Positions 42,550 to 43,422 of a DNA stretch of 54,722 nt are shown piece by piece. How positions within the stretch are numbered: the first letter of the stretch is position 1; each line of letters opens with the position of its first letter. The notes beneath the pieces were generated by a model, which had not been told where the DNA came from, did not search any database, and saw nothing but the letters and a program-made list of their open reading frames with translations. This stretch comes from Pseudomonadota bacterium (GTDB taxonomy: Bacteria > Desulfobacterota > Syntrophorhabdia > Syntrophorhabdales > Syntrophorhabdaceae). The position numbers and the translations under genes were made by a program. The stretch lies in the NCBI GenBank assembly GCA_026388315.1, contig JAPLKA010000072.1:1-54722 (forward strand), in the 5' to 3' direction.

Positions 42550-43422
42550 ATGAGAGAGGTATTTATACCGGATCATCTTGATGAGGTATGGGATATTCTC
42601 GAAAGAGAACCGGAGGCATTGCTCTATGCCGGCGGCACCGACCTTCTGGTCAGGCTCAGATTTGACTTCGCCGGTTCGCCGGTTCGCCGGTTCGCCGGTT
42701 CGCTCATCTGCCTCGAACGGATAGACGAACTCAAAAGCATCCATGAGGCAGATGGTCAGATATTTATCGGCAGTTGTGTAAGCCATACAAAGCTCATGGA
42801 AAACCTGCTCATCCAGAAGCACTTTCCCTTTTTAATTCAGGCGGTGAAGGTTCTCGGTTCACCTCCAATCAGAAACATGGGTACAATCGGTGGGAACATC
42901 TGCACCGCCTCTCCTGCAGGTGATACACTCCCTCCCCTGTACACGCTTGGAGCTATTGTGGAGATACGATCCATTGACAGTAACAGGCTTGTGCCGCTCA
43001 AGGGTTTTATCAAAGGTCCCGGCAAAACGGCCCTTCAGAGGAGTGAGATCGTCTATGGGGTATGGATTAACACGGACCAGGATTATAATGTCTGTTATTA
43101 CGAGAAGGTAGGGCAACGGAAGGCGCTTGCCATTGCCATTGCCAGTTTCGCAGCTTTGCTGAAACTATCAGAGTCGGGCATCATTGAAAAGGCGCTGTTT
43201 GCCTGGGGAAGCGTGGCGCCTGTGATTGTAGCCTCTCGGGAAGTAGAGGGGGCACTCATTGGAAGGCCCCTCACCGCGGAGTCTCTCAAGTCGGTTGTTC
43301 CACTCGTTGAGAAGGCCGTATCTCCCATAGACGATGTCCGGGCAAGCGCAGAGTATAGAAGAATGGTGGCTGGAAATCTTCTTTTCCGCCTGCTGCAATA
43401 TGGGAACCATGGCAGCACCTGA
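42550..43422 (+). CDS. FAD-binding subunit of the molybdenum hydroxylase
   Basis: The 290 residues are the CoxM/XdhB-type FAD subunit. Flavin contacts are in YAGGTDLLVRL and the GSPPIRNMGTIGGNICTASP loop. A tandem 8-bp repeat (42667-42703) inserts about eight residues (around SPVRRFAG) just after the first flavin loop. As written the frame is open. It starts directly after the small-subunit stop and overlaps the MFS gene. Confidence 0.93.
   Translation: MREVFIPDHLDEVWDILEREPEALLYAGGTDLLVRLRFDFAGSPVRRFAGSLICLERIDELKSIHEADGQIFIGSCVSHTKLMENLLIQKHFPFLIQAVKVLGSPPIRNMGTIGGNICTASPAGDTLPPLYTLGAIVEIRSIDSNRLVPLKGFIKGPGKTALQRSEIVYGVWINTDQDYNVCYYEKVGQRKALAIAIASFAALLKLSESGIIEKALFAWGSVAPVIVASREVEGALIGRPLTAESLKSVVPLVEKAVSPIDDVRASAEYRRMVAGNLLFRLLQYGNHGST
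42667..42703 (+). repeat. tandem 8-bp repeat TTCGCCGG, 4.6 copies, inside a coding sequence
   Basis: Units start at 42667, 42675, 42683 and 42691, with a partial unit TTCGC at 42699. All four full units are identical. Eight is not a multiple of three, so gain or loss of one unit shifts the reading frame of the FAD subunit gene. Confidence 0.95.

Follow-up and report, generated by a model that had tools for sequence, protein, structure and literature searches.

An in-frame octamer array in a molybdenum hydroxylase FAD-subunit gene is one of many 7/8-bp repeats across the genome and is probably a slip-prone repeat in a tolerant loop rather than a selected switch

The gene for the FAD-binding subunit of a molybdenum hydroxylase contains an 8-bp tandem array that belongs to a family of related repeats, differs by one unit (4 versus 3) between the genome studied here and that of a sister species, and falls in a protein loop; repeat islands lie in frame in other genes as well. 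Our analysis indicates that the array is probably a slip-prone short tandem repeat (STR) of a genome-wide population, residing in a tolerant loop with its frame kept by selection, and not a selected switch. Slippage would be the mechanism of change, purifying selection would act on the frame and the array would have no regulatory role. The array was found in a 54,722-nucleotide stretch of DNA, the whole of which is referred to as the window, among the following features:

39734..42055, + strand: molybdopterin-binding large subunit (PF02738, PF20256, PF01315)
42052..42549, + strand: [2Fe-2S] subunit, directly upstream of the FAD gene (profile evidence)
42550..43422, + strand: FAD-binding subunit of a molybdenum hydroxylase of the xanthine dehydrogenase/CO dehydrogenase class (Pfam PF00941, PF03450)
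42667..42703, + strand: 8-bp tandem array, TTCGCCGG x4 + TTCGC (sequence and TRF)
43334..44611, + strand: MFS transporter, directly downstream of the FAD gene (PF07690)

The FAD-subunit ORF (42550-43422, 290 aa) combines the PF00941 FAD_binding_5 and PF03450 CO_deh_flav_C domains, has the conserved AGGTD and TIGGN motifs and adjoins the Mo and 2Fe-2S subunits, an arrangement that places it in the FAD-subunit class. For assignment of its substrate by NCBIfam equivalogs, every score was below cut-off. The start of the MFS transporter, as called, overlaps the 3' end of the FAD gene. In several family members (L018, L020, L021 and L022), the ORF holding the FAD subunit is 457-489 aa long, as might be expected if the Fe-S and FAD subunits were fused there.

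The initial annotation had described four identical units and a partial one at 42667-42703. TRF and the sequence itself concur on this, giving a period of 8, 4.6 copies and 100% matches, and of the perfect arrays in the window's 23 TRF rows, the TTCGCCGG array scores highest. It occupies codons 40-52 of the FAD gene. The further claim that gain or loss of a unit shifts translation, with the present count in frame, was borne out by in silico unit replacement: the full protein is obtained with 1, 4 or 7 units, and a stop is reached at codons 53-71 with 2, 3, 5 or 6. The arithmetic by which three extra units equal 24 bases, or eight codons, over a single-unit ancestor is also right, because the repeat is absent from G001, a congener more distant from the window's species than the sister species G002, and the loop there consists of six residues (SLTSRN), exactly the number in a 1-unit allele. 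Repeat statistics were drawn from a 455-kb sample of the window's genome, made up of a 400-kb set of stretches and the window. Arrays of 3 copies with periods of 5-12 numbered zero in every Markov-simulated copy of this sample, and a chance origin of the octamer array is therefore excluded, as it is by an excess of periods 7, 8 and 14. As at loci subject to phase variation by simple sequence repeats (SSRs), a tandem repeat beyond chance expectation here sets the reading frame through its unit number.

Perfect repeats with periods of 7, 8 and 14 formed 42, 15 and 32 arrays in the 455 kb against about 2 expected for each, other periods being far less raised. The combined density of periods 7 and 8 was 13.8 per 100 kb, somewhat inflated by the choice of some sampled contigs for their octamer hits, versus 1.8 in loci from unrelated named genomes; other periods were not raised (8.0 versus 12.6). 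The octamer family, defined by the pattern CGCCGNTW, gave 31 hits at approximately 18 distinct sites, including the window, in the window's genome (G000) and 10 hits in G002, with 0 hits in G001 and G005 and 0 for a reversed-pattern control. Dozens of copies of a GGGTTCAAG-type family are present in each of G000 and G002. An internal-variant string, TACGCCGGTTCGCCGGTTCGCCGG, is intergenic in G000 (C55:44676) and lies within a glycosyltransferase gene in G002, indicating that the octamer sequence is itself interspersed. About half of the sampled arrays were outside ORFs, though ORFs, crudely called, cover approximately 86% of the sequence; coding sequence is thus under-used by the arrays but not free of them. 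Both the excess over other periods and genomes and the presence of one unit family at many unlinked places identify a genome-wide population of 7/8-bp STRs.

G002, the closest sister species at about 94% nucleotide identity, is represented at this locus by contig JAPLKD010000053.1 (L045) of a Lake Pavin sediment metagenome bin. Its FAD array has 3 units plus TTCGC versus 4 units in G000, a comparison of one assembly per species that is made between species and not within one population. With 3 units, the G002 FAD gene as assembled is truncated: the ATG frame ends after about 57-62 codons, with a stop at nucleotide 174 of the gene (57 codons, or 58 with the start included), and the remainder runs on in another frame up to the normal stop with no other lesion. 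The number of units is thus not fixed, and its change disrupts the frame. An invariant number among relatives, which the initial annotation had held to speak against switching, was not what we observed; variation among close relatives is a property of SSR phase variation. Among 60 family genomes outside G000 and G002, the same octamer array was not found at 3 units with 1 mismatch allowed.

In an alignment of approximately 16 kb at 93-98% identity, no indel other than the 8-bp array step breaks the frame within a conserved domain. Neither general decay of the G002 contig nor frequent assembly indels in it were accepted as explanations, the other coding indels in the 16 kb being multiples of three, compensated or located in the Fe-S tail. 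Rescue of the 3-unit allele by an alternative start was also rejected: a TTG/ATG is present near the 5' end in the downstream frame, and its product lacks the AGGTD FAD motif. The dN/dS of the FAD gene between G000 and G002 is 0.35 before the array (from 7 differences) and 0.18 after it and, because these values show a gene under constraint, the loss of frame in G002 is recent, transient or an assembly matter. A 7-bp tandem duplication relative to G002 (GGGTTAA/GAGTTAA type) lies in the 3' tail of the Fe-S gene at about 42515-42521, altering only the last residues of that protein. In G002, approximately 3 kb (L125:3379-6448, C233) separate the Mo and Fe-S genes, replacing window positions 42011-42052; this insert contains an N-terminal fragment of a UPF0758 (RadC-like) protein and an 845-aa DNA methylase.

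At the protein level, alignment of relatives locates the array in a loop flanked by GGTDLLVRLR and LICLERI. The length of this loop varies among homologues, with 8 residues in most and more in others, for example 28 in L026. An AlphaFold2 model of the FAD subunit (mean pLDDT 88.6) places the array in an irregular segment between a helix at residues 29-40 and a strand at residues 52-54, with residues 41-46 scoring below 50. The eight residues of the array encoded without a nucleotide repeat, a finding that the initial annotation had listed as one that would tell against a switch, were not seen in any aligned homologue.

Beside the FAD array, the octamer family occurs at about 17 places, of which at least four are within conserved genes, in frame each time. 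A handful of coding islands was examined, comprising that in the FAD gene and those in the following genes:

L155:14615-16597 (G000 C47:41095-43074) and L161 (G002 C125): radical SAM protein YgiQ, carrying a large insert in frame
L203:604-2805 (G000 C71) and L210/L207 (G002 C173): RecG helicase with STR islands
L198:1318-2173 (G000 C55:70.6-71.5 kb) and L191:1291-2089 (G002 C236): GT2 glycosyltransferase in which DDGSTDGTRE is followed by a long STR-derived loop
L192:3-2654 (G000 C52): hybrid histidine kinase, HATPase domain split by a 174-nt in-frame STR island

The in-frame 7/8-bp islands of G000 measure 216 nt in YgiQ (between anchors), 141 nt in RecG, 192 nt in the GT2 glycosyltransferase and 174 nt in the histidine kinase. 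Between G000 and G002, island length differs by 81 nt in YgiQ and 57 nt in GT2, both multiples of three, and repeat content differs in both genes; the GT2 loop after DDGSTDGTRE is in frame in each species. The G000 YgiQ insert includes three different 7/8-bp arrays (GGACGTG, GAACCGGC and ACGATTT), and at this position G002 carries another insert, shorter but also in frame, where the hit table shows none for G001. In RecG, G002 has a different island and a deletion of approximately 148 bp that starts at the end of the STR, with loss of both the VMTATPIPRTL motif and the reading frame. In G005, which belongs to another genus, RecG and YgiQ have comparable inserts at these positions.

A sequence of events consistent with these observations can be proposed. 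Lineage-specific interspersed 7- and 8-bp STRs would expand and contract through slippage, being enriched between genes yet also entering loops of conserved proteins where changes in length are tolerated. The loop of the FAD subunit may have started with 1 unit and gained three (24 bp, 8 codons) to give the in-frame 4-unit allele, from which loss of one unit would produce a 3-unit frame-shifted allele such as that of G002. Selection at the protein level would keep the length of most coding islands divisible by three, and alleles that have lost the frame (in G002, the 3-unit FAD allele and the broken RecG) would be occasional lapses, arising as by-products.

An octamer array that lies early in a gene and varies between sister species resembles a contingency locus, and on this analogy switching is possible. 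Reversible unit slippage would then toggle the FAD subunit, and hence the Mo-hydroxylase, as a form of bet-hedging on substrate. The frame-shifting unit, the 4.6 perfect copies within the first fifth of the gene and the truncated 3-unit allele of the sister species are consistent with this explanation, as is the constraint still evident in both halves of the gene, which implies a recent or transient break. Three of our findings also sit uneasily with the array being one more STR island: the G002 FAD frame is off without a further lesion; the FAD array consists purely of one octamer unit repeated at 100% identity, whereas the islands in other genes are mosaic; and slippage at codon 40 of 290 truncates the protein cleanly, in the manner of a contingency locus. 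Such a locus is nevertheless unlikely in our judgement, given that the repeat family is scattered genome-wide and includes housekeeping genes, that the units are few by comparison with known 7/8-nt tracts of mostly 12 or more (PMC2651432, PMC3309571), and that the 4-versus-3 difference is known between species, from one assembly of each. Of the slipped-strand switch put forward in the initial annotation, our findings support the count that keeps the frame, an ancestral length of 1 unit and the frame-breaking difference between 4 and 3 units, but they do not support a switch purpose-made for the Mo-hydroxylase, with repeats genome-wide and in frame in unrelated conserved genes and an array of only 4.6 units. 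Because the repeats also occur in housekeeping genes and are enriched intergenically, they appear to be a general property of the genome and not a device for this enzyme. A broader possibility, that coding STR islands are a distributed source of reversible frame changes and give environmental bacteria a metabolic and mutator contingency system, strikes us as most improbable; if true, contingency would span metabolic and DNA-repair genes (the FAD subunit and RecG), and loss of the RecG frame could alter repeat stability.

The G002 allele may have other origins. The approximately 3-kb Mo/Fe-S insert, present in G002 and absent from the window, makes loss of the operon's value a live alternative in that species: the insert would have devalued the operon, and slippage would then have been fixed as ordinary gene loss. 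RecG is likewise frame-broken in G002, by a deletion beginning at an STR island. This explanation covers only the G002 allele, is compatible with the STR explanation that we favour and is rather unlikely in view of the low dN/dS, the lack of any other stop in the Fe-S and FAD genes and the intact Mo gene of G002. Alternatively, the 4-versus-3 difference could be an artefact of assembling a short-read metagenome bin, through collapse or strain consensus. G002 is a metagenome bin, known from its assembly, and the 148-bp RecG deletion in the same bin is suspicious. However, the array is 37 bp long, below typical read length, and the rest of the 16-kb alignment contains no frame-breaking indel in a conserved domain; we consider an artefact very unlikely.

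This lineage carries STRs inside conserved genes, in the same protein loops across species, with repeat content changed and the frame mostly kept and occasionally lost. Here nature has set up a comparison by which coding STRs could be judged to be neutral invaders or switches. There is also a caution for such genomes, namely that a gene with a broken frame may be a slippage allele and not a dead gene.

Phase variation is by definition a high-frequency, reversible switching (PMC11868660). In Haemophilus influenzae, the SSRs of hmw1A/hmw2A and of TonB-dependent receptor genes resemble the FAD array in having tandem 7/8-nt units whose number differs between strains, and in one hmw1A copy an intragenic heptamer is associated with a frame shift (PMC2651432, PMC3309571). 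Most of the documented H. influenzae 7/8-nt phase-variable loci have 12 or more units, although a heptamer tract of 1-7 units upstream of a TonB-dependent receptor gene is also listed as a potential mediator (PMC2651432, PMC3309571); the FAD array has 4.6. Many of the H. influenzae repeats are in promoters and surface proteins are affected, whereas the present array lies in a redox enzyme subunit and is known from assembled sequence. Our literature search found no matching paper on phase variation of molybdenum enzymes by SSRs, a negative result that argues only weakly for there being none, and a limited open-licence search found no account of mosaic 7/8-bp STR islands in conserved genes whose frame is mostly preserved from one species to another.

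Among long SSRs, heptanucleotide repeats form the largest class in many bacterial genomes, where they lie mainly between genes (PMC4692102, PMC4679880). The heptanucleotide-biased long SSRs known as STRR in cyanobacteria, GGGAATC in Xanthomonas and TAACTGA in Beggiatoaceae (PMC4692102, PMC4679880) share with the repeats described here a genome-wide excess of approximately 7-bp units, a mostly intergenic location, variable length in close relatives and occurrence across all gene classes. Here, in contrast, many 7- and 8-bp units form mosaic islands, an octamer family is prominent and the islands lie mid-gene in conserved protein genes. In this last respect they resemble the Rickettsia palindromic elements (RPEs), repeated DNA found in frame within many protein genes (reviewed in PMC10969869), with which they share tolerated positions in many unrelated functional proteins. 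No palindromic element was noticed when the repeat sites were read by eye, the sites being tandem arrays. RPEs are palindromic elements of about 150 bp with a conserved peptide, whereas the repeats of this lineage are short, tandem and variable in both unit and length.
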